Of a DNA stretch of 53,799 bases, positions 16,210 through 50,985 are shown in pieces. This DNA comes from a virus. Under the pieces are notes generated by a model. That model saw nothing but the letters and a program-made list of their open reading frames with translations. It searched no databases and was not told the origin of the DNA. The DNA lies in IMG/VR virus record IMGVR_UViG_3300018049_000024, positions 1 to 53,799 of that record; one strand, 5' to 3'. The translations under genes and the position numbers were made by a program. Position 1 is the first letter of the stretch. Each line of letters opens with the position of its first letter.

Positions 16210-17122
16210 GGTATTGGATTACGATATAATTTATTTAAGTTATGATGAACCAAATGCTGAACAGAATTATGCTGATTTATGTAAGAAAATACCATGGGCA
16301 AAAAGAGTTCATGGCGTAGAAGGCTCGGATGCGGCACACAAAGCCTGCGCAAATTTATCTGAGACTGATAGATTTGTTACTATAGACGGCGATAATAGAA
16401 TTAGAGAAGATTTTCTTACGCAAGAGATTAATTTTGGCGATCATTATGAGCTAGAAGATAAAGTTATTAGTTGGTGTGGGTATAATGTTATCAACGGACT
16501 TATGTATGGTAACGGCGGAGTAAAATGTTGGCCCAAAGATTTTGTGCTAAATATGCGAACACACGAAAACGCAGATCCAAATAATCCACACGCTCAAGTA
16601 GATTTTTGCTGGGATGTAGAATACATTCAAATGAATTCTTGTTTCTCTGATATTTACAATAACGCAACACCACAGCAAGCATGGCGAGCAGGATTTAGAG
16701 AAGGCGTAAAGATGGCACTAGATCAAGGAGTAAAGCCATCTTTGGAAGACTTCAAAAATAACCACTGGAAAAACCTCCACAGGCTGTTTATTTGGCTTAT
16801 GGTGGGTAACGATGTTGAGAATGGAATGTGGGCGATCTTGGGCGCTAGACAGGGCCTATACAAGACGATGTGCACCGACTGGGATTATGTTCAAGTAAGA
16901 GACTTTACTTACCTAAATAAATTATGGAATGAAGAAGTTAGTAAGCTAACCGAAACAGATGCTGAAGGAGAGATTATTTGGTTTGGCAGATTATTAGAAG
17001 AAGAATTAGATTTACCAATTGATAGAAAACCCTTAACAGAAAAGCAAAGTATATTTTTCAAAACAGTATATCAAAACCCATCTAGGATTTCAAGAGCAGT
17101 AATTGATCCGGAGATAGGATGA
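16193..17122 (+). CDS. Glycosyltransferase-like protein (DGD type)
   Basis: 309 residues. 'YDIIYLSYDEPNAEQNYADL' followed by 'RVHGVEG...AH', 'FVTIDGDNRI' (D65-G-D67, DxD-like) and 'YGNGGVKCWPKDF' is matched closely in the C-terminal domain of the 549-residue protein starting at 25248 ('MSYDEEYADENYENLLKKAP', 'RVHGVKG...AH', 'IVDADAI', 'YGYGGVKLFPREL'). Both therefore share a GT-A-like fold. Later 'AFREG.K' and 'LHRLFIWLMVGNDVENG.WAI' are also matched. Nucleotides 16640-16880 include clearly more GC-rich stretches than the flanks. Substrate unknown. Confidence 0.65.
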   Translation: MEKVFKVLDYDIIYLSYDEPNAEQNYADLCKKIPWAKRVHGVEGSDAAHKACANLSETDRFVTIDGDNRIREDFLTQEINFGDHYELEDKVISWCGYNVINGLMYGNGGVKCWPKDFVLNMRTHENADPNNPHAQVDFCWDVEYIQMNSCFSDIYNNATPQQAWRAGFREGVKMALDQGVKPSLEDFKNNHWKNLHRLFIWLMVGNDVENGMWAILGARQGLYKTMCTDWDYVQVRDFTYLNKLWNEEVSKLTETDAEGEIIWFGRLLEEELDLPIDRKPLTEKQSIFFKTVYQNPSRISRAVIDPEIG

Positions 17123-18543
17123 GAGAAAATCAGCGAGGAGATCAAGTCTCGCTAGTTGAAGGACGATATGTTTCAAAATATTTTAAAGATAGTAAAGAGA
17201 CACTAACGGATCTCAATGCCGTTAGTCCGTCATTCTGCCTAGCAAAATGGTTCAATGTATCAATTCATATCCCAACAGGGCAGACTCACAGTTGTTATCA
17301 TCCCCAGTCTCACGCTATACCATTAGACGAGTTAGCGGCTAATCCAGATGCTATACACAACACTAGCCATAAAATACAGCAGCGGCATAAGATGTTGGAA
17401 GGAGAGCGTCCAAAAGAGTGTAGTTACTGCTGGGATATTGAAGATCAAGGCAATATAAGTGACAGAGCTTACCGCAGCAATGATGTTCAAGAGGAAGGAC
17501 TAATACAAAAAGCATTAGACAACATTCAGCACCCAACTCCACGCTATATGGAGGTAAATTTTAATCAGGCTTGTAACTTTAAGTGTGCATATTGCTCACC
17601 GCATTTATCTACTGAATGGCTAAAGGAGGTACAAGAGTATGGCGGTTACAAATTATCATCAGGAACGCATAATGATAAAGGTTGGGTAGATAGATTAGGG
17701 ATTGACAATAGCCCAGACAATCCATACGTTCAATCGTTTTGGGAATGGTGGCCCACTGTATATAAGGATCTAAAAACATTTAGAATGACAGGCGGTGAGC
17801 CACTAATGGATAAGAATACTTTCAGAGTATTTGATTATGTAAAACAAAATCCAAATCCAGAACTTAATTTGTGTATTACAAGTAATTGTTGCCCACCAGG
17901 CAATCAATGGAATAAGTTTATGGTTGCTATAAAAGAGATAGCAAATGAAGAAACGCTCAATCACTTTCAACTATATTGTAGCTTAGATACTTGGGGAGAG
18001 CAAGCAGAATATATCCGTAACGGTTTAGATTATGAGATATTAAGAAAAAATATTGTACAATTTTTAACAGAGTGCAAAAATCATAGCTTAGGATTTATAA
18101 TTACATCAAATTTGCTCAGTCTTCCTAATTGGTGTAAGTTTATAGAGACTATTCATGAGCTACGATGTAAAGTAAATAAAGAGAGACAACTAATATGGTT
18201 TGATACTCCAATGCTACATCATCCTAATTGGCTAAGTATGAGATTAGCAACTCCAGAGATGTTGAATAATTTACAACTTAGTATAGATTTTATGGAAAAT
18301 AATAAAGAGACTTCCAATAATAGATTTAAAGGTTTTAAGGATTTTGAGATTGATAGAGTAAGACGATTATATGATTGGGCTAAACATCCTTTTAGTGCTG
18401 AAGAAGATGAGAAACATAAGATAGACTTTTATTTATTTTTTACTGAACATGATAAAAGGCGCAATACAAATTTTACAAAAACATTTCCAACTATGATAAA
18501 ATTTATGAACCAGTGTAAGGAGTATTATGAGCAAAGGAGATGA
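17119..18543 (+). CDS. Radical SAM protein, N-terminal twitch type (A1)
   Basis: 474 residues. The [4Fe-4S]/SAM motif CxxxCxxC is C152-C156-C159 (ACNFKCAYC), and TGGEP at about 224-228 is the SAM-binding GGE motif. An upstream cysteine set, C40, C59, C101 and C104 ('ECSYCWDIE'), with 'GQTHSCYHP', fits an auxiliary-cluster twitch domain at the N-terminus, as in the family known as twitch-domain radical SAM proteins. It forms a tandem paralogue pair with the next gene: both have 'SCYHP..H.IPL', 'YC..HLST/QAST.W..E', 'DNPY...FW.WWP' and 'DTWG.QAEY.R.G'. Substrate unknown. Confidence 0.88.
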   Translation: MRENQRGDQVSLVEGRYVSKYFKDSKETLTDLNAVSPSFCLAKWFNVSIHIPTGQTHSCYHPQSHAIPLDELAANPDAIHNTSHKIQQRHKMLEGERPKECSYCWDIEDQGNISDRAYRSNDVQEEGLIQKALDNIQHPTPRYMEVNFNQACNFKCAYCSPHLSTEWLKEVQEYGGYKLSSGTHNDKGWVDRLGIDNSPDNPYVQSFWEWWPTVYKDLKTFRMTGGEPLMDKNTFRVFDYVKQNPNPELNLCITSNCCPPGNQWNKFMVAIKEIANEETLNHFQLYCSLDTWGEQAEYIRNGLDYEILRKNIVQFLTECKNHSLGFIITSNLLSLPNWCKFIETIHELRCKVNKERQLIWFDTPMLHHPNWLSMRLATPEMLNNLQLSIDFMENNKETSNNRFKGFKDFEIDRVRRLYDWAKHPFSAEEDEKHKIDFYLFFTEHDKRRNTNFTKTFPTMIKFMNQCKEYYEQRR

Positions 18544-19891
18544 TCACGTTCGAGAAGCAAGAGATGTTGCAAAGAGACTGAATGCAGTAGGTCCAGGGTT
18601 TTGTGCTATGAAGTGGCTACATCAAACTTTATATTTACATACAGGTGATAATCATAGTTGTTATCATCCACGTCCCCATCATATTCCTTTACATACTCTA
18701 AAAGATAACCCGTCTGCTTTGCATAATACTAACTGGAAAAAAGAACAACGAAAAACAATGTTAGAGGGTGGACGCCCTGCTGAGTGTTATTATTGTTGGA
18801 ATATTGAAGATTTAGAAGGAGATCATTTATCAGATAGAATGTTCCATAGCTCTAGCTCGTTTGCTGAGCCAATGATTGAAAAATTAGCAGAGCTTCCTTG
18901 GGATGCTAATATAAATCCAAGATATTTAGAAGTATCGTTTGGCAATGGTTGTAATTATAGATGTGGTTACTGCTGTCCACAAGCAAGCACAATGTGGATG
19001 GAAGAAATTGAGACATACGGCAATTATGATTTGACATATAATCAATATGGAACAGAGTTTTTGCGAAGCGGAAACTACTATGGACCAAATGAAGATAATC
19101 CATATATTGAGGCGTTTTGGAAATGGTGGCCCAGTTTGAAAAATGATTTATGGACACTTCGTATTACTGGCGGGGAGCCACTAATGAATCCTGGAGCTAT
19201 GAAGTTTTTTGATTTATTAGAAAATGAACCATCGCCTAACTTAGAGATTAGCTTAAATAGTAATTTAGGTGTTACTACAAAAAAGATTGATAGGTTGTTT
19301 GATCGGATACGAAGTTTATTAGATCAAAATAAAATTAAGAAATTTAGACTCTTTACAAGTATTGATACATGGGGACCACAAGCTGAGTATATGCGTACTG
19401 GAATGAAGTTAGATCATTGGGAGCGCAATCTTAGAAAAGCAATGGAGATGGAATTTGAAGTAAGTCTTATGTGTACATTTAATGTTTTATGTGTTACAAA
19501 CTATAAATCGTTTTTATATAAAATGAAAGAATGGAGAGCTGATTATGGCAAAGAGGCTATTTCATTTGATGTTCCATATCTTAAAGAACCACCTCATTGG
19601 ATGATTAATATTTTGCCCGAAAGTTTTATGGAATATATGCATGATACTTTAGAGTTTATTAATAGTGACTCTGATTTTTTACCAGCAGAGTATGAGAGAT
19701 TTAAACGAGTCACAAATTATATGAAAACTAATCCAGTTGAGCATAGTAAAATTTTACAAGGACAAAGAGATTTTTATTCATTTTTTACAGAAAATGATAA
19801 ACGATTAGGAACTGATTTGTTAGCTACATTTCCTGAGTATAAAGATTTTTATTATCATTGTAAAGATGTTTATGAGAACTACGAAAAATGA
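18527..19891 (+). CDS. Radical SAM protein, N-terminal twitch type (A2)
   Basis: 454 residues, paralogue of the preceding gene. The radical SAM cluster cysteines are C142, C146 and C149 (GCNYRCGYC); TGGEP is at 214-218. N-terminal auxiliary cysteines are C26, C45, C87 and C90 ('SCYHPRPHHIPL', 'ECYYCWNIED'). The C-terminal part has 'LFTSIDTWGPQAEYMRTG', close to 'LYCSLDTWGEQAEYIRNG' of the paralogue. The overlap of 17 nt with the upstream gene and four with the downstream one indicates co-translation. Known family chemistry is SAM cleavage to a 5'-deoxyadenosyl radical; which substrate is modified is unknown. Confidence 0.88.
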   Translation: MSKGDDHVREARDVAKRLNAVGPGFCAMKWLHQTLYLHTGDNHSCYHPRPHHIPLHTLKDNPSALHNTNWKKEQRKTMLEGGRPAECYYCWNIEDLEGDHLSDRMFHSSSSFAEPMIEKLAELPWDANINPRYLEVSFGNGCNYRCGYCCPQASTMWMEEIETYGNYDLTYNQYGTEFLRSGNYYGPNEDNPYIEAFWKWWPSLKNDLWTLRITGGEPLMNPGAMKFFDLLENEPSPNLEISLNSNLGVTTKKIDRLFDRIRSLLDQNKIKKFRLFTSIDTWGPQAEYMRTGMKLDHWERNLRKAMEMEFEVSLMCTFNVLCVTNYKSFLYKMKEWRADYGKEAISFDVPYLKEPPHWMINILPESFMEYMHDTLEFINSDSDFLPAEYERFKRVTNYMKTNPVEHSKILQGQRDFYSFFTENDKRLGTDLLATFPEYKDFYYHCKDVYENYEK

Positions 19892-21450
19892 GTTATGTAT
19901 ATTATAATAATGACGGCTCAATAATAGCAGCATCAAATGATTTGTTAACAGATTTTGCAAATGCCAACATTTTAGAAATTGAGTTTGAAAAAATAGAAAA
20001 ATTGTTAGTTGGAGAGCATTTACCATCAGAGTATAATGTTTATAAAAATAAACTAGTCTATAAAAAAGAGAAAGTAGAATCAACATGGAAGTTAAAGGCT
20101 ATTACATTTTTTTATAAATATTTGAGAAGAGTTGAATCATATTATAATACCTATCATGACATACTTAAATATAAAGTAGCATTAATGACAACGACACCAT
20201 ATAGTCCCCCATCTAAATCTCTTTATCATCGTCCCCCATCTAAACCTATTCATCCAACAAGATGTGTTAATCCATATCTAAATTTAACAATACATCCAAG
20301 TGGTAAAGTTAAAGTATGTTGTATGAGTCATAAGTGGCTCACTACTGATTCTGGAGAGACTACTTTAAATAATGCTAGTTTGTTAGATTTTTGGAATTCA
20401 AAAGACAGAAAACGATTTATAAAACAATTAGAGAGTAAAATACAAGTTCCTGAATGTAAGGCTTGTTGGACTGAAGAAGCAGCAGGAAAAGATAGTAAAA
20501 GATTGCGAGATAATGCAGCATACAAACACATACCACACGATGAACAGTCTTTTCCAATAGTATTAGATTTAGGTATGGGAAACTTATGTAATTTAAAATG
20601 TCGTATTTGTTCAGCAGTTCATAGTACACCTATGTTAGCTGAAGAAGCTGAAATGTTGCAGCCAAACGATGTTGTTGGTTATATGAATCAAGATAAGTTC
20701 CGTATTACTCGTGAAAGTTTTGATCCTAATAATTCGTATGTTTGGGAAGATATAAAACCATTTCTAAAAAATGCTATGAGGTTTGATTTCTCAGGCGGAG
20801 AGCCTTTTTATATTGATTCGCATTGGCGTATAATAGATCATTGTGTAGAGAATGATTATGCGAAAGAACAAATAGTTCATTACAATACAAATGGATCAAT
20901 ATTTCCACAAAAGCATATTCACAAGTTAGATAAATTCAAATTAGTTGATATACAAATAAGTTCAGATGGTATAGGTAAACAATTTGAATATTTGAGAAGT
21001 GGTGTATCATTTGAATTGTCAGAACAAAATATAGATAAGTTTTTAGAAAGAAAAAAAGAAAGTAAAACTAATTGGTTATTAGGTGCTTGTCTAAGTGTAA
21101 GTGCTTTCAATGTTTTTGATTTTTTTGAAACTTATGAGCATTATACAGCAAAAGGTTTAGGGGTATATGTTAATTTTGTTCATGATAATGGTGGAATACG
21201 AGTGCTACCAACAGAAGTTAAAAATCATTTGATAGATAAACTTCAAAGGACTGAAAGTAAGTATAACAAAGCAGATTGGCGTAAAGTAAAAAACTCAATA
21301 TCAAGTATATTGAATAATACTGAGTTCGTAGAAGAAGATTGGCTTTGGTTTTGTAATAGATTTCAAAGTTTAGATAAAGTGAGAGAGGAAAGTTTTGAAC
21401 AAACTTTTCCAGAATACTATAAGTTATTAAAGGAATATATAAATGTTTAA
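19888..21450 (+). CDS. Radical SAM protein with extra MSYV N-terminal domain
   Basis: 520 residues, the longest rSAM here. Residues 1-65 are an added domain shared with the protein at 15607. A linker with a doubled 'PPSK' (about 107-119) follows. Residues 125-195 form the N-terminal twitch-like region: C126, C144-C145 ('SGKVKVCC'), C190 and C193. The rSAM motif is C234-C238-C241 (LCNLKCRIC), with SGGEP at 302-306. 'ISSDGIGKQFEYLRSGVSFE' is the DG/YxRxG segment seen in the other twitch proteins. The fusion to a mobile domain suggests a specific partner or substrate. Substrate unknown. Confidence 0.87.
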   Translation: MSYVYYNNDGSIIAASNDLLTDFANANILEIEFEKIEKLLVGEHLPSEYNVYKNKLVYKKEKVESTWKLKAITFFYKYLRRVESYYNTYHDILKYKVALMTTTPYSPPSKSLYHRPPSKPIHPTRCVNPYLNLTIHPSGKVKVCCMSHKWLTTDSGETTLNNASLLDFWNSKDRKRFIKQLESKIQVPECKACWTEEAAGKDSKRLRDNAAYKHIPHDEQSFPIVLDLGMGNLCNLKCRICSAVHSTPMLAEEAEMLQPNDVVGYMNQDKFRITRESFDPNNSYVWEDIKPFLKNAMRFDFSGGEPFYIDSHWRIIDHCVENDYAKEQIVHYNTNGSIFPQKHIHKLDKFKLVDIQISSDGIGKQFEYLRSGVSFELSEQNIDKFLERKKESKTNWLLGACLSVSAFNVFDFFETYEHYTAKGLGVYVNFVHDNGGIRVLPTEVKNHLIDKLQRTESKYNKADWRKVKNSISSILNNTEFVEEDWLWFCNRFQSLDKVREESFEQTFPEYYKLLKEYINV

Positions 21451-22696
21451 TGGTAGCAAATATCAAGTCCATTGGGAACCATCAGATAGATGTAATAGTC
21501 GGTGTCCAATGTGCCCAAGGTATGATGACAGAGGTTATGAGACAAAGCATTTAGCAAATACTGAATGGACCTTAGCTCAGTTTAAGAAAGCATGGCCCTT
21601 AGATTTTTTATCTGTGAATCTTAAGAAAATATTATCGTGTGGTAATTTTGGAGATCCTTGTGCCTGTCGAGAGTTTGTGGATATTTATGAGTATGTTAGG
21701 GAAATAAATCCAACAGTTGGTTTAGCTTGTAACACAAATGCTAGTCTTAGGCAAACAGATTGGTGGGCTAGGTTAGGTGCTGTTATGACAAAAGAGCAAA
21801 ATGCAGGAAACTACTGTACGTTTAGTATAGATGGTTTGAAGGATACTAATCATATATATAGGCGTAATACAGATTTTGATAGGATTATAGAAAATGCTAA
21901 AGCATTTATTGATGCAGGCGGAGTAGCTCATTGGGATTTTATAGTATTTAGGCATAATGAGCATCAAGTAGAAGAAGCTAGAGATTTAGCTCGATCAATG
22001 GGATTTGAAAACTTCAATGTAAAGAAAACAACCCGTTGGCAACGATATGATGATGGTATTGGCAGTTATAAAGTATATCACAATGGCGAATACAAATATG
22101 ATTTGCAACAACCATCTGATAAAGCATTTAGACATCACTTTGAAGATGCTACTATGTTCCAAGGGGAAGAGAGACAATCTTTTAGACCCAGTGATTTTCA
22201 AAATATGGTTGGGAGACATAATTCTGAAAGAAGATGGGTAGGTGATAGTTGGCAAGACATTGATTTACATAAGTTAAATATTGCGTGTCGTAGCTCAGCT
22301 GGGGCTCGTATAAATTATTATAATGAGATTTATATTTCAGCAGATGGAACTGTTCATCCTTGCTGTTATTTAGGAAGTGAGATAGTAAAAAGTCATAATG
22401 AAGTAGCAGATCAAAATTATTTAGATATGTTACAACTTGATGGCGGTTATGAGATGTTTAATATGCATAAGTATAACTTATGGGATATCTTAGATAGAAA
22501 AACATTTAGGGAATATTTACCTAGCTCGTGGGATTTAGAAAAAGGAAATGTTTCAATGCGTCCTCAAAAATGTGGAGCGTGTTGTGGTGTTGAATGGAAT
22601 TGTTTAGATTACGGTGAGCTTGGCGATAAAAATGAAGGTTACTTTGTAAAAGAAGATACAAAAATTGAAGCACAGGAATCAGAAAATGAAATCTAG
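21443..22696 (+). CDS. Radical SAM protein with C-terminal SPASM-like cysteines
   Basis: 417 residues. CxxxCxxC is at C17-C21-C24 (RCNSRCPMC), very near the N-terminus, so there is no N-terminal twitch. Instead C-terminal cysteines C282, C307-C308 ('GTVHPCCYLG'), C377, C380, C381 and C387 look like a SPASM/twitch auxiliary-cluster domain. It is paralogous to the gene at 28131: 'SIDGLKDTNHIYRRNTDF' and 'AGGVAHWDFIVFRHNEHQVE' have close counterparts there. SPASM rSAM enzymes often modify peptides or sugars; which applies here is unknown. ATG overlaps the previous stop by eight bases. Confidence 0.87.
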   Translation: MFNGSKYQVHWEPSDRCNSRCPMCPRYDDRGYETKHLANTEWTLAQFKKAWPLDFLSVNLKKILSCGNFGDPCACREFVDIYEYVREINPTVGLACNTNASLRQTDWWARLGAVMTKEQNAGNYCTFSIDGLKDTNHIYRRNTDFDRIIENAKAFIDAGGVAHWDFIVFRHNEHQVEEARDLARSMGFENFNVKKTTRWQRYDDGIGSYKVYHNGEYKYDLQQPSDKAFRHHFEDATMFQGEERQSFRPSDFQNMVGRHNSERRWVGDSWQDIDLHKLNIACRSSAGARINYYNEIYISADGTVHPCCYLGSEIVKSHNEVADQNYLDMLQLDGGYEMFNMHKYNLWDILDRKTFREYLPSSWDLEKGNVSMRPQKCGACCGVEWNCLDYGELGDKNEGYFVKEDTKIEAQESENEI

Positions 22697-23894
22697 CAAT
22701 TATTGCGTACTGCCATTTAAAAGTTTTAGCACAAATCCATCAGGTGAGATCAGAGTATGTTGTAATAATGGACACATGCCAGCCCCGTATCAAAAAATAT
22801 CTGAAACTGAAGATGTATTGAATAGTAGGTTTATCCAAGATATTAGGCAACAGTTTATTAATAATGAAAAACCAAGCATATGTGATAGATGCTGGAAACA
22901 AGAAGAAGCACAAGTTCGTAGTTTTCGTCATTATGCAAATAATGATTTACTTTTTGGTATAAAAGATGATGACGAGTCATCTAAGGCTAACGTTAAAGTT
23001 TCTTTTGAAGATATAGAGTATTGCGATATTAGCATAGGAAATCATTGTAACCTTGCTTGTAGAATGTGCAACCCTTTTAGTAGTAGTCTAGTTGGTAAAG
23101 AATTTGCTTCTATGGAAGGACTTCCAGAACCAAATTTAATAGGCCCAACACCAGATGAGAAGAAAAAAATATATGAGATTTTAGAAAAAGCAGTAAATTT
23201 AAATACTGTTTATTTGTTAGGCGGTGAGCCGTTGATTACAGATTTACATGAAGAAATATTAGATTTATTAATTGATTCAGGTAAAGCTCAGAATGTTGTT
23301 CTTAGGCTTAGCACTAATTTGCAAACAAATAAACTAGATAAGTTTATTGAGAAATGGGTTAAGTTTAGGCAATTAGCGATTCAAGTTAGTATAGATGGTT
23401 ATGACAATATGTATGAGTATATTAGATGGCCCGGCAAATGGAGTAAAATAGATGAGAATTTTAGACATTTGATAGATGCTACAAAATTATCAAAAAGAAA
23501 ATTGCTCCCAAGTATCGCAACTACTATTCAAAATATAAACTGCCATAGTATTTTAGATTTGGTAGAAAATTATTGTATGACAAATAGATATCCAGTATCG
23601 TTTTATTTTATACCAGTAACTTCAGGCGAGGATTTATATATGACTCCAAAGAAGACTTTGATGGAGGTTTTTAAGAGACAAGAAAGGTTACAGCACAAAC
23701 TGGGAGGATATATACCTTTAAGTGATTTAGAAAAATATTTAACAAGTGCTATGAGTCGAAAACCTACTAAAGATGAAGTAACGAAATTTTTTGACAAGTA
23801 TAAAAAGTTTGATATTAGACGAAAACAAAATTTATTTGAGGCTGCTCCTTTTATGGAAAATTTAGCTAAGGAGTTTAAGATTACGACATGGTGA
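22686..23894 (+). CDS. Radical SAM protein, N-terminal twitch type (B1)
   Basis: 402 residues from ATG 22686, preferred over a TTG 21 nt upstream because AGGA lies nine bases before it and the protein then begins as its paralogues do ('MKSSNYCVLPFKSFS'). N-terminal cysteines: C7, C25-C26 ('GEIRVCC'), C66, C69 ('CDRCWKQEEA'). The rSAM motif is C121-C125-C128 (HCNLACRMC) and LGGEP is at about 178-182. 'VSIDGYDNMYEYIRWPGKW' is the conserved middle segment. It follows a SPASM-type rSAM gene, as the similar gene at 29188 does, suggesting that the two enzymes act as a pair. Confidence 0.88.
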   Translation: MKSSNYCVLPFKSFSTNPSGEIRVCCNNGHMPAPYQKISETEDVLNSRFIQDIRQQFINNEKPSICDRCWKQEEAQVRSFRHYANNDLLFGIKDDDESSKANVKVSFEDIEYCDISIGNHCNLACRMCNPFSSSLVGKEFASMEGLPEPNLIGPTPDEKKKIYEILEKAVNLNTVYLLGGEPLITDLHEEILDLLIDSGKAQNVVLRLSTNLQTNKLDKFIEKWVKFRQLAIQVSIDGYDNMYEYIRWPGKWSKIDENFRHLIDATKLSKRKLLPSIATTIQNINCHSILDLVENYCMTNRYPVSFYFIPVTSGEDLYMTPKKTLMEVFKRQERLQHKLGGYIPLSDLEKYLTSAMSRKPTKDEVTKFFDKYKKFDIRRKQNLFEAAPFMENLAKEFKITTW

Positions 23895-24547: not shown

Positions 24548-24552
24548 AATGG

Positions 24553-25197: not shown

Positions 25198-25214
25198 TAG
25201 GTGCCTTTCTTCTA

Positions 25215-25237
25215 AATAAATACTACTATTATTTATT
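25215..25237. promoter_or_regulatory. Divergent late-promoter-like inverted repeat
   Basis: AATAAATA (25215-25222, plus) and its exact reverse complement TATTTATT (25230-25237) flank a seven-base centre. Each half would read as a T4-type late promoter core, one toward the ATG at 25248 (25 nt away) and one toward the minus-strand gene starting at 25197 (32 nt away). The spacing suits both genes, but the motif is AT-rich and may be a chance palindrome or a hairpin. Confidence 0.35.
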
Positions 25238-25247
25238 AAACCTTTTT

Positions 25248-30842: not shown

Positions 30843-30855
30843 TATTAAGATAAAT

Positions 30856-36260: not shown

Positions 36261-36808
36261 ATCATTCTATAGGTTGGATTAATAAAGAAGGCATTGAACT
36301 TCATTTAGATTATATGACAAATGATTATGGTAAGATATTAGAAGGAGGCTCTGCCGCTGGAAAATTATTTTATCATTTACATCAGGTAAAACCTAATTGG
36401 GAGTATTATGCTGTGAATACTTGGACCAAAGATGATGTGTTTTTGCAAAAAGATTGGAATGGCAAATATTGGGATAAAGATAATCTTGGTGAACGTGTTA
36501 CTATTGATTTATTTGTAAAGTATTGCCCGTTTTCTAAATATTATGATGGCAGGTTTGAAGATTATAAGATTGACGAAAAGTTTGACATTGTAAGCATTGG
36601 ACAAATTGGTCCTAATATAGATTGGGAGAAGACTTTTACTGTAGCCTATGATTATTTAAAAGATGGTGGGGTTATTATAGGTAGAAATTATAGTCATTAT
36701 CATTATAAAGACCCAATTCGTAAAGCAACTGAAAGGTTTGATGTTTTAGAGATTGATAATAGAAATGATGAATATCCTAATCAAAATTTTATAATAGAGA
36801 AAAAATGA
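36251..36808 (+). CDS. Methyltransferase-like or Rossmann-fold protein
   Basis: 185 residues. 'YGKILEGGSAAGKLFYHLHQ' is a glycine-rich start after the first strand, 'WEYYAVNTWTKDD' follows, and 'EKFDIVSIGQIGPNIDWEKT' with 'YDYLKDGGVIIGRNY' resembles strands 4-5 of class I methyltransferases ('fD.i.ig.......e......L.pGG.ii..d'). The cofactor is inferred to be SAM. It overlaps the rSAM gene before it and the SGNH gene after it (ATGA). Substrate unknown. Confidence 0.55.
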   Translation: MEINHSIGWINKEGIELHLDYMTNDYGKILEGGSAAGKLFYHLHQVKPNWEYYAVNTWTKDDVFLQKDWNGKYWDKDNLGERVTIDLFVKYCPFSKYYDGRFEDYKIDEKFDIVSIGQIGPNIDWEKTFTVAYDYLKDGGVIIGRNYSHYHYKDPIRKATERFDVLEIDNRNDEYPNQNFIIEKK

Positions 36809-37515
36809 AAATAGAACCATTTCTTAGGGCTATGCATAAAAATGAATGTAACCAAACAAAAGATTTTCTATATCCTCGTCAAAAAGAGGAACTTGCTAAA
36901 CATAGAAAATTCTTATCAAAATATAAAGATGGATTATATATTAAAAATCCTGTAACATACACCATAAACCATTTAGGATATCGAACTAGAGACGATATAC
37001 CTACCACTGATTATATATTAGCAGTGGGCTGTAGTCATACATTTGGGATAGGATTACATGAAGAACATAGATTTACTAATTTATTAGAAGATTTTTATAA
37101 GGTCCCAGTGCTGAATGTTTCTATACCAGGTGGATCACCAAATAGCGTTCGAGACAATATAATCCAATTATTATCAAGTGATACTTGTTTACCAAAATTA
37201 GTTATACTACAATGGCCCAGTGATACTAGGCTTACTTTTGGACTTCAGAATCTTGGGCCATGGGCTAGAAGAGATCTTTATTATGCTAGGTTTGTAGCTT
37301 TGAATAAAGATAATATATCTTTATATAGTAAGATAGCAAAAGAGCAAACACCTAGATTACTAACAAAGCATGGTATTCCGTTTATTTCTTTTGATATGAA
37401 GGAGAGAGAAAAACATTTTTTTCTTGATGTAGCTAATGATAGAGATCATTCTGGTATAGAAGGGAACAAGCTAGTTTTTGAGCATTTAAAAGAACAAATT
37501 GATGCAATATTGTAA
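36805..37515 (+). CDS. SGNH-hydrolase-like protein (2)
   Basis: 236 residues. 'DYILAVGCSHTFGIGLHEEH' includes S77 of a GCS block, 'VSIPGGSPNSVRDN' the glycine/asparagine block, and 'NDRDHSGIEGNKLVFEHL' a D-x-x-H-like C-terminal block, so all elements expected of an SGNH catalytic set are present. This is the clearest of the three SGNH-like proteins here. Likely reaction is acyl-ester hydrolysis or transfer, perhaps on a sugar. It overlaps the next gene by 14 bases. Confidence 0.7.
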   Translation: MKIEPFLRAMHKNECNQTKDFLYPRQKEELAKHRKFLSKYKDGLYIKNPVTYTINHLGYRTRDDIPTTDYILAVGCSHTFGIGLHEEHRFTNLLEDFYKVPVLNVSIPGGSPNSVRDNIIQLLSSDTCLPKLVILQWPSDTRLTFGLQNLGPWARRDLYYARFVALNKDNISLYSKIAKEQTPRLLTKHGIPFISFDMKEREKHFFLDVANDRDHSGIEGNKLVFEHLKEQIDAIL

Positions 37516-38026
37516 GAACGATTGTCTTAATGAGCATATAAAGCAACGGAGAGTGTATCATGGTGGAGATCATATCTATAAAACATGGATCAAACCAAAA
37601 ATAACTTATGAGTATTTAAGAAATATGGTGGAGTTGATTGAAAAAGTAGATCCGTCATATGTATTAGATTATGGTATTAATAATGGTAAATGTTGGGCTA
37701 AGTTTCGTATAGTAGAAGGAGAGCTTAGATATAATCCCTTCAAATGGAATGAAGAATCAGTTAGAAACGTTATTAATTTTATTACAAATCATTATAAAAC
37801 TTTTTACCCAATATATCACGGTGATCCTTGTTTAGGAAATATTTTAGTATCAGATGACACTTTTCATTTTATAGATTATGACGACATATGTGTAAATGAA
37901 AATATAAATCAAGTGTTTAAACTTATACAGAATAAATGTTTAGAATCATTTTCAATGGGTGCATTTGCAGGAAAATATAATAACTTGATAAAGTCAGTAA
38001 TAAAAGAGAATAAAAAACTAATATGA
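37502..38026 (+). CDS. Compact APH/choline-kinase-type phosphotransferase
   Basis: 174 residues from the ATG at 37502. 'FYPIYHGDPCLGNILVSDDT' has HGD at 106-108 and N113, the catalytic loop of aminoglycoside/choline-kinase-type phosphotransferases, and 'FHFIDYDDI' places D125 as the metal-binding Asp. The usual 250-300-residue fold is much reduced: only a short N-lobe-like region ('YHGGDHIYKTWIKP', possible Lys27) precedes it. It is a likely small-molecule or sugar kinase, but ATP-binding elements are minimal. The frame ends just before the aminotransferase start (ATGA). Confidence 0.6.
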   Translation: MQYCKNDCLNEHIKQRRVYHGGDHIYKTWIKPKITYEYLRNMVELIEKVDPSYVLDYGINNGKCWAKFRIVEGELRYNPFKWNEESVRNVINFITNHYKTFYPIYHGDPCLGNILVSDDTFHFIDYDDICVNENINQVFKLIQNKCLESFSMGAFAGKYNNLIKSVIKENKKLI

Positions 38027-38964
38027 AATATGAAGATATGACTTTTGAAGTCTTAGGCACTCATAGACAGCGTCCAATGTATTTGCGTAAATTTACAACC
38101 TTTAGGAGTGAGTTAGATATGGCTACTTATCCTAGAGATCCACATGCATATACAGAAATATTTTTAGATACTATAGACAAATGGATAGCATCTCACAAAT
38201 ATATCAAGTATAATGGATTAGAATCATTTTCTCGACGAGATGTGATTTTAGGTACTACACACCAGCTAGATGAGTTACATCTTCTTCACGGGGAAAATAT
38301 TGTAGTCTATAAAGGCGAATATAAATATCATAGAAGATTAACAAACCATAGTGTAAGGCAGATCAATACATACACTCAGCTTAGAAAGGGAGATGTATTT
38401 ATAGTATCTTATCCAAGTTGTATTACAACAGGCAAAATAGATGAGTTTGATGAGCTTTTAGATTATTGTGCTAAATTGTATATACCAGTTCATATAGATG
38501 GAGCTTGGTTTGGGCAATGTAGAAATATTGAGATTTCTGTAGATCATCCCGCGATTCAAAGTGTAAGTGTAAGTTTAAGCAAAGCATTAGGAATGGGAAA
38601 TCAACGAATAGGTATTAGATATACAAAAGATCGAGTAAATGGACCTATTGCTATTATGAATGATTTCGGTTATGTGAATGCTAGTGATATGTGGGTAGGA
38701 GTAGAAGCAACAACTTATTTTGGTGCTGATTATTGGTGGGCAAATTATGGCGAGTTATATACTAAAGTTTGTAAAGATTTTGATTTGCTAGAGTCCGATA
38801 GTATTCATGCAGCATGGAAAGACAATATTTTGTATGGAATTCGAACCCCGCTACGAATGTTAATAGAAGGTATATACGATGAAAGAGGTACTGATAAAGG
38901 ATTATCAGATATTGAACGAAAAGATAGATCAAATGAAGTTTGGAAATCAATGTCTAGACATTGA
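38023..38964 (+). CDS. PLP-dependent aminotransferase-like enzyme (fold type I)
   Basis: 313 residues. 'LYIPVHIDGAWFGQCRNIEI' gives D159, the residue that contacts the PLP ring nitrogen, and 'QSVSVSLSKALGMGNQRIGI' gives K187, the Schiff-base lysine in an S-x-S-K context. 'GDVFIVSYPSCITTGKID' matches the usual strand before the Asp. At 313 residues it is shorter than typical (350-400). It could make amino-sugars, or act as a decarboxylase. It overlaps the oxygenase gene by 86 bases, unusually long for this operon. Confidence 0.68.
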   Translation: MKYEDMTFEVLGTHRQRPMYLRKFTTFRSELDMATYPRDPHAYTEIFLDTIDKWIASHKYIKYNGLESFSRRDVILGTTHQLDELHLLHGENIVVYKGEYKYHRRLTNHSVRQINTYTQLRKGDVFIVSYPSCITTGKIDEFDELLDYCAKLYIPVHIDGAWFGQCRNIEISVDHPAIQSVSVSLSKALGMGNQRIGIRYTKDRVNGPIAIMNDFGYVNASDMWVGVEATTYFGADYWWANYGELYTKVCKDFDLLESDSIHAAWKDNILYGIRTPLRMLIEGIYDERGTDKGLSDIERKDRSNEVWKSMSRH

Positions 38965-39625
38965 TTTAGATAAATGGATTGAAAAATTTTATAAAATATA
39001 TAAAGATAAATCTGATGATTTTAAAATATCTGGCGCATTTAAAGGAAACACGCATTATAAATTTACATTAGACGATAGAATATCTTTTGCTAAGGATATT
39101 CCATTTATTCGTGATAGTAAGTTGCAATGGTTTTTTGAATTTTTCTATGCTACAGAACCAGTAGGTTTGCATAATGATTATTTACTAACCAACATGTCCA
39201 ATGGTGATATTATAAGGGATAAGATTGGCATACTAATACCATTAGAGTGGAATTCAAAACAACCATATACACTTTTCTTTGATAAATTTACAGAAGATTC
39301 AAAATTAATTTTTCGAAAAGGCGAAATGCGCCATCATAAAACAAATGAAGTATATTCGTATAGACACTCTGATGATATTGATAAAGAAATTGATTTTTAT
39401 CAACCAATAGGATCTAAAAATAGGCGACAATATATAGATTTAAAAATAGTTGATATTTTTACATATAAGAAAAATTATAGTTATGTTTTTGATACGCGGC
39501 AATGGCATTCTGGGTCTTGGTTTATAGATAACTTAACTGGTGAACCAGAAGAAAAAAAGTATAAATTGATTATTTCTGGTTTTGGCTCAGAAATACTAAA
39601 CCCTAAAAACAGGAATAAATGTTAA
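38879..39625 (+). CDS. Putative 2-oxoglutarate/Fe(II) oxygenase (2)
   Basis: 248 residues. 'ATEPVGLHNDYLLTN' contains H98-x-D100 and 'SYVFDTRQWHSGSWFIDN' contains H210, giving the H-x-D...H triad of the double-stranded beta-helix fold. A basic residue follows ('KKYKLIISGFG'). The ATG at 38879 is preferred since GAAGG lies about eight bases upstream; a shorter start at 38933 would reduce the overlap with the aminotransferase from 86 to 32 bases. Substrate unknown. Confidence 0.55.
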   Translation: MKEVLIKDYQILNEKIDQMKFGNQCLDIDLDKWIEKFYKIYKDKSDDFKISGAFKGNTHYKFTLDDRISFAKDIPFIRDSKLQWFFEFFYATEPVGLHNDYLLTNMSNGDIIRDKIGILIPLEWNSKQPYTLFFDKFTEDSKLIFRKGEMRHHKTNEVYSYRHSDDIDKEIDFYQPIGSKNRRQYIDLKIVDIFTYKKNYSYVFDTRQWHSGSWFIDNLTGEPEEKKYKLIISGFGSEILNPKNRNKC

Positions 39626-40305
39626 CAAAAGATTTTCAGATTAATGATGCTTATAAAAAGATAGGAATCAAATTATCAGGTGGTGCAGATAGTTCTATAA
39701 TTTATTATATGTTATGCGAGCATACTAAAGATAAAGATGTAGATATATATGTTCTATCAATTGGCACGCCTGTGAAACCATGGTATCCTGACGGAGCAAA
39801 ACGTGTAATTGATATTGTTGGAAAGATGACAGGAAAATATCCAAAAGAACATTTGATAAATATGGTCCCGCATTCTGAGTATGTTATAGGACAGGACAAA
39901 TTAGCTGAAAAATTAAGAAATGAATATGGAGTAGATGTCATTTATTCAGGTTTAACTATGAATGTTGAAAACAACAAGTTTCAGAACGTATTGATGTCTA
40001 ATAAAGAACTTTGGAACTTAAATGAAACTGACATTAAGAATAGGCTAGCTACTAGAGATAAATCAAGAGATTATAAAGTAAATAAGAAACAGATACCTTG
40101 GAGACCATTCGGCCACGGTGATAAAATGACTACTTACGAAGCCTATAAAATTAATAATATGATAGATGAGTTATATCCATATACTTATTCCTGTGAAAGA
40201 ATGGATGTACCAATCGAAGAATATAAAGGAATAGAAAATATGGTGCATTGTAATCGATGTTATTTTTGTTTTGAGCGGTGGTATGCGTTTGGGAGGCTGT
40301 TGTAG
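39619..40305 (+). CDS. QueC/ExsB-like PP-loop ATPase
   Basis: 228 residues, matching the family size. 'IGIKLSGGADSSIIYYMLCE' has the PP-loop SGGxDS (20-25). The C-terminus 'CNRCYFCFERWYAFG' plus an upstream Cys ('YSCERMD') resembles the zinc-binding cysteines of QueC, which turns a carboxy-deazaguanine into preQ0. QueC uses C-x8-C-x2-C-x2-C; here the first gap is longer (about 19). No QueD or QueE is evident beside it, so the substrate may be different: it may activate another acid by adenylation for amide or nitrile formation. Confidence 0.7.
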   Translation: MLTKDFQINDAYKKIGIKLSGGADSSIIYYMLCEHTKDKDVDIYVLSIGTPVKPWYPDGAKRVIDIVGKMTGKYPKEHLINMVPHSEYVIGQDKLAEKLRNEYGVDVIYSGLTMNVENNKFQNVLMSNKELWNLNETDIKNRLATRDKSRDYKVNKKQIPWRPFGHGDKMTTYEAYKINNMIDELYPYTYSCERMDVPIEEYKGIENMVHCNRCYFCFERWYAFGRLL

Positions 40306-41061
40306 ATGGATTATAAAAAATATGATAAAGATGGAAATGAGTTAAATCTAATACCTTTGGCAAAAAGATCAAAGCAAGCAAATTTTTATCAAAAATGGTT
40401 AGATGATCCAAACTCAGTAATGCCAACAGATGAGGATATTAAGTGTGAGCTACAATTGCAAGCACTTAGTTATTGGGAACCTTTATCAATCAAAATCAAA
40501 CGTAAAGTTCAAGAAGAATTAACAGCGTTAGACGATATGTGGCAACCATATTTAAGACGAGAAGGAATAATGAATGATAGGGAAGGTATTCCTTTGTTTT
40601 CTATTCCAGAATTAGATATGAAAAGCGGCATAAGTATGCCTGATGCTACAAAAGCAATGGGTAGGCCTTTATCAGAGTTAGAGTTTTGCCATCCAACAGA
40701 AGCATATCATGCTCTACCTAGTCTCCATACTTTGTTAGATTATTGGCAACCATTAGGCAGAACATTTTTAGTAAAATTAAATGCCGGTGGGTATTTTCCT
40801 CCGCATAAAGACACTCCATTGTTAACAAGAAATACTTTTAGAGTAGTGGCATTTTTATCTGATCAAAATTCACTAGATCAGTTTGAATGGGAAATGGATC
40901 GCAGGCAAGTACCAACAAAGGAATTTACTGCTTATTATTGCGATACAAGGCAAACACATAGAACTCATTCTTGGGCACATAATTGTATTCATTTAATAAT
41001 GAACATTCCTAAAACTTGGGAAAATGTAATGAAGGTAATGAGTGTGACTGATAAGTATTGA
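40306..41061 (+). CDS. Putative 2-oxoglutarate/Fe(II) oxygenase (3)
   Basis: 251 residues. 'LNAGGYFPPHKDTPLLTRNT' has H167-x-D169, and 'CDTRQTHRTHSWAHNCIHLI' provides H218 or H221 for the third iron ligand; a C-terminal strand follows. The strand pattern 'FLVKLNAGGYFPPHKD' resembles asparaginyl/prolyl-hydroxylase-type DSBH folds. Arrangement differs from the oxygenase genes at 23888 and 38879, so the set is divergent rather than a recent duplication. It starts right after the PP-loop gene stop. Confidence 0.62.
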   Translation: MDYKKYDKDGNELNLIPLAKRSKQANFYQKWLDDPNSVMPTDEDIKCELQLQALSYWEPLSIKIKRKVQEELTALDDMWQPYLRREGIMNDREGIPLFSIPELDMKSGISMPDATKAMGRPLSELEFCHPTEAYHALPSLHTLLDYWQPLGRTFLVKLNAGGYFPPHKDTPLLTRNTFRVVAFLSDQNSLDQFEWEMDRRQVPTKEFTAYYCDTRQTHRTHSWAHNCIHLIMNIPKTWENVMKVMSVTDKY

Positions 41062-41063
41062 TT

Positions 41064-41768
41064 ATGAGATCTCGACAACAAATAACCAAATTGAAAAAGG
41101 CACAAAGTCCGCCAGTCTCAATAACTGATATATCAATAGAGGTTGATAAGTATTTAAATTTTTATTATGAAAATAAAAAGCATTGGGTTATAAAAAATAC
41201 AGGCCCTACTTTTTTACAGATAGAAAAAGTAGATAAAAACAATGAGCTATTACAGCCTATAGTTAATAAACTTAAAGATAGGTTTGGATCATTCAAAATA
41301 AGAACTTCTCATATTTTTGATGTTACATCTCCTCATGTTATTCATAATGATGACACTCCAGAATACCCAAATAGTTACAAAGCATTTACTATACCTTTAA
41401 AAATATATGGAAAGTCAAACGATCTTAAATTAGTTTTATTTGATCAATATTATTATCATGGTCCTGCGAAATTTTTTAACGGTGATATCCCCAATAAGCA
41501 TGCAGTCTATTATAATAAACCATTATGTAACTATAAGTATGTTTCGTATAAAAGTAACCTAAAAATTAGTGATGAGATATACAAAAAATATTTAACTCAC
41601 TGTAAAAAAGAATGGTTGGATAATTTATCTATAAATACTTTGTTAGATTGGAAACTAGGAAATATTTTATGCTTTGATAGTTTACAATTACATTGTAGTT
41701 CAAATTTTAGAAATAATAATGTATCTCAAAAGATTGGACTATCAATTTTTACTGTAAAGGATGATTGA
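41064..41768 (+). CDS. Putative 2-oxoglutarate/Fe(II) oxygenase (4)
   Basis: 234 residues from the ATG at 41064. 'SHIFDVTSPHVIHNDDTPEY' has H94-x-D96, 'LLDWKLGNILCFDSLQLHCS' has H210, and 'QKIGLSIFTV' carries a Lys where 2-oxoglutarate is often bound. These fit the DSBH iron triad. 'GDI' and 'YYYHGPAKFF' lie between. It ends in a TGATG junction with the nitroreductase-like gene. Assignment rests on motif order only. Confidence 0.58.
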   Translation: MRSRQQITKLKKAQSPPVSITDISIEVDKYLNFYYENKKHWVIKNTGPTFLQIEKVDKNNELLQPIVNKLKDRFGSFKIRTSHIFDVTSPHVIHNDDTPEYPNSYKAFTIPLKIYGKSNDLKLVLFDQYYYHGPAKFFNGDIPNKHAVYYNKPLCNYKYVSYKSNLKISDEIYKKYLTHCKKEWLDNLSINTLLDWKLGNILCFDSLQLHCSSNFRNNNVSQKIGLSIFTVKDD

Positions 41769-42487
41769 TGGAATGGTTAGAGCTAATAGAAGAAAGACAT
41801 ACAACTTTTGCATGGGATGAAGAGAGAATCCCTAAAAAAGAGCTTATTATAGAAGCGTTACAAGAAGTACACACTCACATACCAAGTAAAAACTTAATGT
41901 TTCCGTATCAAGTAAGATTATATAGACACAATGATGAGGCTAAACGAAAAAGACTTATGGAGATATGTCTTAGAAATGGATCGTTATCTACAGAAGATGA
42001 TCCTGGAAATCCACAAGTTCTTGCTCCGTGGATACTTTTATTTAATTCAAGATATTGTTCTGATTTAGAAGGTAGATTTGATACAAAAAGTCCTAGGGCA
42101 AAATTAGATGGTTTAGGTTCTGGAAAAACTCGTACACCGGGGCATCAAACAACAAAGCAAATTCAAACAGAAAATATTGAGATTGGAATTTTTTCAGCAT
42201 TTATAATGTTAGCCTTGGCAAATAGAGGAATACAAAGTGGCATGTGCCAAAATTTATGTAATGATTATCCTGCAGTTGAAGAAATGTTTCCTATATCTCA
42301 CGATGAAAGAGCGTTAGATCTTCGTTTTTTAATAGGTGTAGGATATGGTAAAGATAGATATGTACATTATGACTATTTTGATCCTCGGGTAGATATAGTG
42401 AAAAAAATACCATATCCTCCTGGTATTGTAGATAAGGTATATGGTAGACCTTCGTTCAACAATATTGTAATAGTGGAAGATGAATAA
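41768..42487 (+). CDS. Nitroreductase-like FMN protein (2)
   Basis: 239 residues from the ATG at 41768 (TGATG junction with the upstream stop). 'WLELIEERHTTFAWDEERIP' is the N-terminal segment, 'NPQVLAPWILLFN' the AP strand, and 'EIGIFSAFIMLALANRGIQS' plus GMC the core helix; 'LIGVGYGKD' resembles the family's end segment 'iGyp'. A Ser/Gly/Thr-rich insert near 115-135 ('LDGLGSGKTRTPGHQT') is absent from its paralogue at 30306. FMN binding is expected. It lies between an oxygenase and an rSAM gene, consistent with one oxidative pathway. Confidence 0.66.
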   Translation: MEWLELIEERHTTFAWDEERIPKKELIIEALQEVHTHIPSKNLMFPYQVRLYRHNDEAKRKRLMEICLRNGSLSTEDDPGNPQVLAPWILLFNSRYCSDLEGRFDTKSPRAKLDGLGSGKTRTPGHQTTKQIQTENIEIGIFSAFIMLALANRGIQSGMCQNLCNDYPAVEEMFPISHDERALDLRFLIGVGYGKDRYVHYDYFDPRVDIVKKIPYPPGIVDKVYGRPSFNNIVIVEDE

Positions 42488-43589
42488 AGATTTAAAATGG
42501 AGTCAATACGACTTTACTAAAATTCCTTTTGATGATATAGTCTCATTAGGACAGCGAACATTATTATATAGAGATTTATTTACAGTGTCGTGGTTGCTAG
42601 GACGATATTGTAACTACAAGTGTTCCTATTGTTGGCCCTATGCCCATACTACAAAAAAGGATCATCGTCCTACAGAGCTATGCCTAAAAACAATTGATGA
42701 AATTAAAAGACAAGCAAGGATTAATGGATTTAATTCATTTCATTTTTCTCTGTCAGGCGGTGAGCCTACATTTCACCCTGGCTACTTAGATATCCTAAAA
42801 TATCTAGCAGATGATGTGCCTAACACAAACTACACATCAATTCATATGACTAGTAACTGCTCCCGCCCCTTAGACTGGTTTAGAACGTATGTAGAGTTCG
42901 CTAAGCCGTTTCATAGAGCATCTATAACTGCTAGCCTACATACAGAACATGTCGCTACTACGGGCGATCTAAGCGACTTTGCGGACAAGCTAGAATTCTG
43001 CCAATCATATGATGTGCAAGTAACAGTCAATATGGTGATGGTGCCTGAATGGTTTGACAAGGACTGGGAGAACGCCCTCTATTTACACAACAGAGGGATC
43101 AACGTTACGCTAAAGCCACAGTCCGACCCCACAGCATCCCGTGTGGTAGATGGCTATACAGAGGAACAATTACACACCTTACACAACGGAATGCCGCAAA
43201 GGGCTTATACAGAGACAAAGCGAGAATGGAAAGATAGGCCTAAAGCAACTTTTGAAGTTCCACAAGGACAAAAAGATGATTCATCGGTACCAGGACATTT
43301 TCAAGTAGAGTTTACAGACTCAACTGGTAAAAAATGGTATATGGATCAGGCAGAAAGATTTAATGCGTTTAATTTTAATAATTTTGAAGGATGGATATGT
43401 AACTCAGGGTATCAAGGAATTATTATTAGAGAACCAGATGGTAATATAAAACGAAGTTATTCTTGTCATGATGAACCGTTGGGGAATATAGAAACAGGAT
43501 TCAAATTGTTTAACAAACCAACGATTTGTACAACTAAATCCTGTGTTTCTAGTGCAGACTCTAAATTGCCAAAATATAAATTAATGTAA
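42480..43589 (+). CDS. Radical SAM protein, short type (E2), end of operon
   Basis: 369 residues. C44-C48-C51 (YCNYKCSYC) and LSGGEPTFHP define the radical SAM barrel; paralogous in motif context to the gene at 35367. C-terminal 'WICNSGYQGIIIREPDGN', 'YSCHDEP' and 'CTTKSC' suggest a SPASM-like end. Nucleotides 42780-43240 have about 45-50 percent GC, falling to about 28 percent near 43330, an abrupt composition shift. Its stop overlaps the stop of the convergent tail-fibre gene by nine bases, with no terminator hairpin between. Confidence 0.87.
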   Translation: MNKDLKWSQYDFTKIPFDDIVSLGQRTLLYRDLFTVSWLLGRYCNYKCSYCWPYAHTTKKDHRPTELCLKTIDEIKRQARINGFNSFHFSLSGGEPTFHPGYLDILKYLADDVPNTNYTSIHMTSNCSRPLDWFRTYVEFAKPFHRASITASLHTEHVATTGDLSDFADKLEFCQSYDVQVTVNMVMVPEWFDKDWENALYLHNRGINVTLKPQSDPTASRVVDGYTEEQLHTLHNGMPQRAYTETKREWKDRPKATFEVPQGQKDDSSVPGHFQVEFTDSTGKKWYMDQAERFNAFNFNNFEGWICNSGYQGIIIREPDGNIKRSYSCHDEPLGNIETGFKLFNKPTICTTKSCVSSADSKLPKYKLM

Positions 43590-50941: not shown

Positions 50942-50952
50942 TATGTAATATG

Positions 50953-50985
50953 AATAAATAGGCGCTATCATAGCGCCCATTTATT
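50953..50985 (-). terminator. Bidirectional terminator hairpin after the MoxR gene
   Basis: GGCGCTA (50961-50967) and TAGCGCC (50971-50977) pair perfectly around TCA, and the stem extends through AATAAAT/ATTTATT with one A-C mismatch on plus, which becomes a G-U pair in minus RNA: about 15 bp. On the minus strand the stem starts at the MoxR stop codon and ends in a U-rich arm (CCTATTTATT). It can end MoxR transcripts and also plus-strand read-through. Confidence 0.65.

Follow-up and report, generated by a model that had tools for sequence, protein, structure and literature searches.

A tail-linked island of radical SAM genes in large T4-like aquatic phages and its possible role in decorating virion adhesins

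The closest described counterparts of the locus treated here come from marine and jumbo phages. In the host recognition cluster of pelagimyophages and cyanomyophages, two genomes differ by radical S-adenosylmethionine (rSAM) cassettes (PMC7029224, 2020). For TARA_ERS488813_N000010, a 183-kb marine T4-like genome, 12 rSAM genes and an A-type Fe-S carrier have been noted (PMC5332604, 2017). Jumbo cyanophages carry polysaccharide or secondary-metabolite clusters of 8-12 genes with carbamoyltransferase, 2-oxoglutarate (2OG) oxygenase, and methyltransferase genes (PMC7824862, 2021). Here, we analyze the linear 53.8-kb viral record IMGVR_UViG_3300018049_000024, whose whole length of 53,799 nucleotides we call the window, and within it a block of twelve rSAM genes at positions 17119-43589. 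The explanation we favor, tentatively and with somewhat less than even confidence, is that this block is part of an island, expressed late and linked to the tail genes, with which uncultured, large (jumbo) T4-like phages from aquatic habitats decorate their virion adhesins by varied radical chemistry.

A fixed scaffold behind the tail genes

We assembled 25 islands, each reaching from the tail-tip family gene TIP to the last island gene, rSAM-C: those of 22 further records, of the relatives G003 and G009, and of the window. Gene order is the same in all 25, namely, TIP in one or two copies, s13502, gt13846, gt14729, s15607 where recognized (14 of 25), GT, cargo, rSAM-A, rSAM-B, and rSAM-C. The corresponding genes of the window, on the plus strand like all those below not marked otherwise, are TIP proteins 1 (11563-12540, identified by profile) and 2 (12550-13446), the proposed substrates; a conserved 115-amino-acid (aa) protein (s13502, 13502-13849); two paralogous genes, gt13846 (13846-14751), which is glycosyltransferase-like, and the glycosyltransferase gt14729 (14729-15610; PF11051 Mannosyl_trans3 above cutoff); the small protein s15607 (15607-16209); a universal glycosyltransferase of the GT-A fold (GT, 16193-17122); and the universal core enzymes rSAM-A (28131-29195; aligned identity, 57-74%), rSAM-B (32645-34030; N-terminal twitch; 77-84% identity in relatives), and rSAM-C (42480-43589; aligned identity, 74-88%). 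The cargo before rSAM-A usually includes a second GT-A-type glycosyltransferase (25248-26897; PF00535, E=2.8e-4) and a methyltransferase-like core gene (MT, 27426-28130; labeled by eye), and further cargo lies between rSAM-A, -B, and -C. By eye, repeat units are visible at the N terminus of the second glycosyltransferase (self-BLAST did not report them), and the length of this protein ranges from ~224 to 969 aa across relatives.

The islands measure 17-51 kb, hold 7-20 rSAM genes each, and have 67-100% of their genes on one strand; in four of them, a single longer glycosyltransferase replaces two. When 29 records were searched separately by profile, 27 proved to contain TIP; 25 of the 27 have it 16-51 kb ahead of rSAM-C, with both genes on one strand. 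The two exceptions (G015 and G016) have weak TIP matches and are apparently one phage. The preliminary description of the window had named a unique patchwork without conserved neighbors as evidence against its reading, and the conserved neighbors of all 25 islands show that the block is not of that kind. Directly before rSAM-A, many relatives encode a highly conserved ~74-aa protein (G004:13697-13921, G012:6378-6599, L067:5316-5531), a possible carrier or adaptor, which is absent in the window, G008, G002, G005, and G006.

The island lies between landmarks of the virion. On its left are a tail/baseplate-region structural gene (5169-5771; phrog_11259), with 54% identity in Sinorhizobium phage Phosso and the homolog EST35_0126 in Pseudomonas jumbo phage PA5oct, and a tail collar/fiber-like gene (5773-7905; PHROG tail families). 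The TIP homolog of PA5oct, EST35_0123 (E=4e-35), adjoins a T4 gp10-like baseplate/tail-pin gene and homologs of other left-flank genes, and no rSAM gene is annotated at that place in PA5oct. GenBank notes on EST35_0123 and its left-flank neighbors, EST35_0126 among them, cite electrospray tandem mass spectrometry (ESI-MS/MS) with the sample type not spelled out, which we take as detection in virion preparations. On the right, all on the minus strand, are an Mtd_N-domain protein of the receptor-binding type (43581-45281; PF18454, E=9e-10), a DUF2201 metallopeptidase/VWA protein (46863-48164), and a MoxR-type AAA ATPase (50985-52064; 51% identity in PA5oct). Because the right edge is the Mtd_N protein, receptor-binding-type proteins stand on both sides. 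A second PP-loop-like protein (49898-50980, minus strand; LSGGSDS motif, no Pfam match) adjoins the MoxR gene outside the island.

Thirteen of the 25 islands, the window's (11539) among them, have the octamer TATAAATA, the late promoter of T4, within 60 bp of the first TIP gene. With the distance limited to 40 bp, it precedes 13 TIP starts, whereas 55 letter-permuted octamers do so for 0.56 starts on average and for 5 at most. Four rSAM-B starts are likewise preceded by it (0.6 for permuted octamers), and in the window it recurs before MT (27414). These sequence signals suggest late transcription of the island along with the tail genes.

Radical SAM enzymes and exchangeable cargo

Besides rSAM-A, -B, and -C, the window carries rSAM 1 (17119-18543), 2 (18527-19891), 3 (19888-21450), 4 (21443-22696), 5 (22665-23894), 7 (29188-30318), 8 (31557-32648), 10 (34031-35380; frequent cargo), and 11 (35364-36260). 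The preliminary description had credited the twelve with a CxxxCxxC cluster motif and a GGE-type motif, and this was borne out: the cluster motif is intact in 12 of 12, and the SAM motif reads GGEP or GGES in ten and GN[FL]GDP in two, so that all twelve show the motif pair of the radical SAM superfamily (PF04055). A six-frame PF04055 search matched 11 of them, 10 above the curated cutoff; the twelfth, rSAM 1, scores E=0.0011 there but E=4.8e-92 with NCBIfam NF033640, the N-terminal "twitch domain-containing radical SAM" family. Nearly full-length matches to NF033640 were found for eight (rSAM 1, with its N-terminal twitch, 2, 3, 5, 7, 8, 10, and rSAM-B). At the curated cutoff of 170 bits, seven score above, rSAM 8 falls just below (166.1), and the other four are not members, with rSAM-A and rSAM-C far under it. 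PF13186, the SPASM/twitch auxiliary-cluster domain, lies above cutoff in rSAM 3 (SPASM-like, N-terminal), rSAM 4 (C-terminal SPASM), and rSAM-B, with conserved Cys patterns.

The genes compared are under purifying selection, with changes falling predominantly at silent sites (pN of 0.08-0.47 versus pS of 0.60-0.86) and a dN/dS of 0.07-0.36 where dS could be estimated; several genes have no dN/dS value because dS is saturated. Intact active-site motifs and this selection speak against the inactivity of most of the twelve, which the preliminary description had weighed as a counterargument. Its operon-like block also held up: of the 33 genes that span TIP through rSAM-C, 96% share a strand, with the gene at 24553 reversed, and the ends of neighboring genes overlap or almost touch. 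Every rSAM of the window has its top-scoring match in another phage and not in a paralog of the window (for 22665 and 31557, the percent identities are about equal), which rules out a recent tandem expansion.

Among 50,697 cultured-phage records, recognizable homologs of rSAM-B and rSAM 10 occur in only 3 and 4, respectively, and the window's relatives hold 10-25 rSAM matches per record. The striking density that had first drawn attention to the block is therefore not due to chance. A DNA-level search of the cultured phages with positions 17119-25000 found no relatives, and GT had no homolog among them at E 1e-5. Over residues 3-166, the AF2 model of GT (pLDDT 89) matches GT-A-fold structures (VIA Z ~8-10, with many unrelated GT-A enzymes tied), and residues 167-309 are barely covered; these matches give the fold class GT-A without indicating a substrate. 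The AF2 model of rSAM-B is poor (pLDDT 63), and Foldseek returned nothing for it at E<=0.001, the best match being SkfB at 0.0038.

The remaining cargo of the window begins with a 2OG-oxygenase-like gene (23888-24547; HxD...H motif only, no Pfam match) and the reversed gene, which is short-chain dehydrogenase/reductase (SDR)-like (24553-25197, minus strand; motif only, no Pfam match). A sulfotransferase-like gene (26887-27429; PF17784, slightly under cutoff) precedes MT, and between rSAM 7 and 8 lie a weakly nitroreductase-like gene (30306-30842; PF00881, E=0.011) and an SGNH-like gene (30853-31566; motif only, no Pfam match). Between rSAM 11 and rSAM-C follow a methyltransferase-like gene (36251-36808; motif; 41-46% identity in three relatives), a second SGNH-like gene (36805-37515; motif), a weakly APH-like kinase (37499-38026; PF01636, E=0.015), a candidate pyridoxal phosphate (PLP)-dependent enzyme (38023-38964; PF00282, E=0.009; 65-66% identity in relatives), and a PP-loop ATP pyrophosphatase-like gene with an SGGADS motif that is Asn-synthase/QueC-like (39619-40305; E=0.018 and 0.038). 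Three more 2OG-oxygenase-like genes are recognized by motif in the same stretch (38879-39625; 40306-41061, with 65% identity in G005; and 41058-41768), and a second weakly nitroreductase-like gene adjoins rSAM-C (41765-42487; PF00881, E=0.0078). rSAM 11 forms a module with 36251, 38023, and 39619 that is common to G004, G007, and G012.

These enzyme labels are less certain than the preliminary description implied when it listed the types interleaved with the rSAMs. The glycosyltransferase 14729 is above the PF11051 cutoff. The labels of 26887, 25248, 38023, 39619, 30306, and 41765 reflect subthreshold Pfam scores (E=2e-4 to 0.04). Motifs read by eye underlie the labels of the 2OG-like (23888, 38879, 40306, and 41058), SGNH-like (30853 and 36805), and methyltransferase-like (27426 and 36251) genes.

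Only three of the twelve rSAMs of the window (28131, 32645, and 42480) are universal in the islands; the remaining nine come from a pool of exchangeable genes. Defining cargo as genes of at least 100 aa between the anchors and families at 40% identity, we counted 543 cargo genes across the 25 islands, of which 240 (44%) are rSAMs in 136 families. There are 365 cargo families in total; 294 occur in a single island and one in more than 12, and the median Jaccard overlap between islands is 0.027. Flanked by tail genes and the Mtd_N gene, the locus is thus a hypervariable island in the structural region, the hallmark of a host recognition cluster. Median identity across islands is 32% for TIP, 78% for rSAM-B, and 83% for rSAM-C. 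Cargo similarity correlates with rSAM-B similarity (r=0.24, P=0.011), and in a partial Mantel test with rSAM-B and -C divergence removed, the cargo repertoire still weakly tracks TIP (r=0.16, P=0.023). The Mantel P values are only indicative because the islands are related.

Occurrence in other phages and in bacteria

A search with rSAM-B found 16 viral loci. Twelve of the records concerned, 33-180 kb in length, each contain 11-25 rSAM matches, and one of these, G001, is all but identical to the phage of the window. For rSAM-C, viral contigs yield at least 527 relatives, the best 80 of which share 75-80% identity and lie on contigs of up to 382 kb. Of the rSAM-C relatives, 29 records (76-382 kb) carry 10-21 rSAM matches each. 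The DNA polymerase of the 180-kb relative G008 is nearest to those of Sinorhizobium phage Phosso (49%) and Agrobacterium phage Atu_ph07, followed by 121Q-type jumbo phages. G008 also encodes, as judged from sequence, an A-type Fe-S carrier (105605), Nfu (163928), a ferredoxin (87935), an alternative oxidase (177270), and an FNR-type reductase. The carrier, Nfu, ferredoxin, and reductase could load and reduce rSAM enzymes.

In Phosso and Atu_ph07, homologs of the tail genes of the window have rSAM genes from other families immediately behind them: four motif-bearing rSAMs in Phosso (one annotated as an oxidoreductase) and three in Atu_ph07. On the far side of this slot, Phosso has homologs of the right-flank genes 46280 and 45636 of the window. 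The homologous tail genes, the rSAMs, and the right flank of Phosso together indicate that the slot is shared with cultured phages. No TIP, rSAM-A, rSAM-B, or rSAM-C was recognized in the Phosso stretch. Another cultured phage, Vibrio phage K566, has several clustered but distant rSAMs (L025 14878-19280; 22-28% identity) without the anchors. Moraphages (PMC12619734), which look similar in having four core glycosyltransferases, were not taken as the same group, since they are predicted to infect Bacteroidota and radical SAM goes unmentioned in their description.

In GTDB genomes, rSAM-B has eight matches, five of them in Bdellovibrionota metagenome-assembled genomes (MAGs). At E<=1e-60, rSAM-C occurs in 16 of 241 Bdellovibrionota genomes, the phylum of the Bacteriovoracaceae MAG G042, and in 1 of 398 genomes from the phylum of a gammaproteobacterial MAG, there on a phage-looking contig. 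Two GTDB contigs, MED685 (L065) and NAT137 (L069), look by gene content like misbinned phage and were left out of the bacterial evidence. Across 14 bacterial loci, rSAM-B lies beside rSAM-C in 13, an rSAM-A ortholog (at least 40% identity) is present in 11, GT-A and MT homologs occur in about half, and GT2-type glycosyltransferases are near most. In the rSAM-C tree, the phage genes form one clade (support, 99/100) whose nearest rows are bacterial (92/86), and the outgroup rows are very long.

One Bdellovibrionota contig end, L173, which lies beside pheT, trmD, and rimM by sequence, carries TIP, s13502, gt13846, gt14729, GT, and an rSAM collinearly in the phage order. In the trees, the rSAM-C of L173 falls outside the phages, but its gt14729 is placed within them (97/95), and the TIP unit may therefore be a phage-derived insert. 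At two Bdellovibrionota loci, large pilin-like proteins (L178 13686-15320 and L181 14906-16927; N-terminal motif read by eye) adjoin rSAM-A, and other loci have Tat-signal-like small proteins.

Possible roles and comparison with described systems

We favor a role in decorating virion adhesins, with a scaffold of TIP, s13502, up to four glycosyltransferases, the methyltransferase-like protein, and rSAM-A, -B, and -C that would be transcribed late with the tail genes. Its enzymes would attach a glycan and carbon-centered radical modifications to the attachment proteins of the virion, foremost those of the TIP family. The variable cargo of further rSAMs, 2OG-like oxygenases, and PLP, PP-loop, nitroreductase-like, and sulfotransferase genes would diversify the decoration, so that the attachment apparatus would differ chemically in nearly every phage. 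We infer that the enzymes act jointly on TIP or a neighboring virion protein and that diversification serves attachment or evasion. The preliminary description had proposed a multistep pathway for tail decoration or a surface compound. Conservation in kind, collinearity behind the tail-tip genes in 25 of 25 islands, and the late promoter in 13 of 25 sustain its general idea; fixed steps are not sustained, with three universal and nine exchangeable rSAMs among the twelve. In a more specific form, a fixed glycosyltransferase/rSAM core and an exchanged pool of more than 100 rSAM families would resurface the tail-tip adhesin combinatorially, as a protein-modification counterpart of diversity-generating retroelements; this version is possible but doubtful.

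Several observations weigh against decoration of the virion. The exact octamer before TIP is missing in 12 of 25 islands, and many genes of T4-like phages adjoin tail genes through genome layout. The partial Mantel signal linking cargo to TIP is weak, and the islands are not independent. Of the 16 cassette-positive Bdellovibrionota genomes, 15 lack a TIP homolog, and none was found elsewhere among the 241 genomes except at L173; the rSAM core can therefore work without TIP. The bacterial TIP unit is a single case and may be a phage-derived insert, and the GT2 glycosyltransferases near the bacterial loci fit a glycan pathway.

The same bacterial setting, GT2 genes around an rSAM core mostly without TIP, favors the strongest alternative, in which glycosyltransferases add to the host envelope (lipopolysaccharide/O-antigen, capsule, or lipid A) and rSAM, 2OG, and transferase enzymes tailor it, blocking superinfection or masking the cell. 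The conservation of glycosyltransferases in the islands agrees with it, as do a fatty-acid desaturase and genes of the aspartyl/asparaginyl-hydroxylase family, to which LpxO belongs, in relatives. The glycosyltransferases of pelagimyophage host recognition clusters (PMC7029224) and of jumbo cyanophage clusters (PMC7824862) have been interpreted likewise. We nevertheless consider envelope remodeling unlikely: a late promoter before TIP and collinearity with the tail would be late timing for excluding competitors, no nucleotide-sugar pathway was recognized in the window, and the invariant gene order of all 25 islands ties the genes to TIP.

A diffusible natural product directed against competitors or the host, either sugar/amino-acid derived or like a ribosomally synthesized and posttranslationally modified peptide (RiPP), is a distinctly less probable product of the island. 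Carbamoyltransferase, AMP-ligase, B12-rSAM, and PLP-type genes in the relatives' cargo point that way, as do the PF13186 auxiliary-cluster domains of the window's rSAMs, since SPASM/twitch enzymes commonly mature RiPPs (PMC11002830), and one jumbo cyanophage cluster has been read in these terms (PMC7824862). Yet no conserved precursor peptide was recognized (open reading frames below 70 aa were not surveyed across islands), the ~74-aa neighbor of rSAM-A is missing in the window and several relatives, no exporter or immunity gene was recognized, and nearly every island would need a different compound.

The extreme cargo turnover could instead mean that the slot is a recombination hot spot where enzyme genes accumulate without a common product and with minor separate effects (auxiliary metabolism or Fe-S related); earlier work classed such genes under Fe-S metabolism (PMC5332604). 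A cargo that is 44% rSAM is far from a random gene sample, and a scaffold fixed in all islands with 12 of 12 rSAMs intact in the window makes this improbable. Hypermodification of phage DNA or RNA against restriction is very improbable: viral glycosyltransferases and rSAMs are known in DNA hypermodification, a QueE-like gene is present in G008 as judged from sequence, and 39619 weakly resembles QueC, but no gene acting on DNA or synthesizing modified pyrimidines was recognized in the island, which sits with tail genes and looks late, and known substrates of SPASM/twitch rSAMs are peptides or small molecules.

If the target is indeed the virion, decoration of its adhesins would give phages a new route to vary attachment or escape defenses, and the 136 cargo rSAM families of just 25 islands, whose phages have over 500 relatives among public viral contigs, would offer a very rich pool of unstudied radical SAM chemistry. 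With rSAM-A, -B, and -C as a defined universal minimal set common to Bdellovibrionota, the role of twitch-type (NF033640) enzymes becomes testable, and Phosso and Atu_ph07, both in culture and with rSAMs in the corresponding slot, would aid tests of the rSAM role.

In a search that did not extend to most subscription journals, we met neither the fixed TIP-GT-rSAM-A/B/C scaffold, with its reach, cargo pool size, and bacterial core, nor any literature joining rSAMs to phage tail-protein modification. NF033640 is a family name without a known substrate; it covers eight of the window's twelve rSAMs and neither rSAM-A nor rSAM-C. The Phosso and Atu_ph07 slot resembles the island in having rSAMs directly behind homologous tail genes and differs in the rSAM families it holds. 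The genome TARA_ERS488813_N000010 has the same rSAM count as the window, and the part of its source concerned gives it one sentence under Fe-S metabolism, without an island, anchors, or a tail link. The jumbo cyanophage clusters share the setting of large phages and the combination of sugar and amino-acid tailoring, whereas the word "radical" is absent from the main text of that study (PMC7824862). Like the present island, the host recognition cluster of marine T4-like phages is hypervariable, sits in the structural region, and has tail fibers and glycosyltransferases, but it lies between VrlC and gp14, and its rSAM cassettes are occasional (PMC7029224). The island described here, in contrast, has a fixed TIP/GT/rSAM-A-B-C scaffold, a cargo that is 44% rSAM, jumbo-type phages as its carriers, and a site that runs from the tail genes to the Mtd_N, DUF2201, and MoxR genes.

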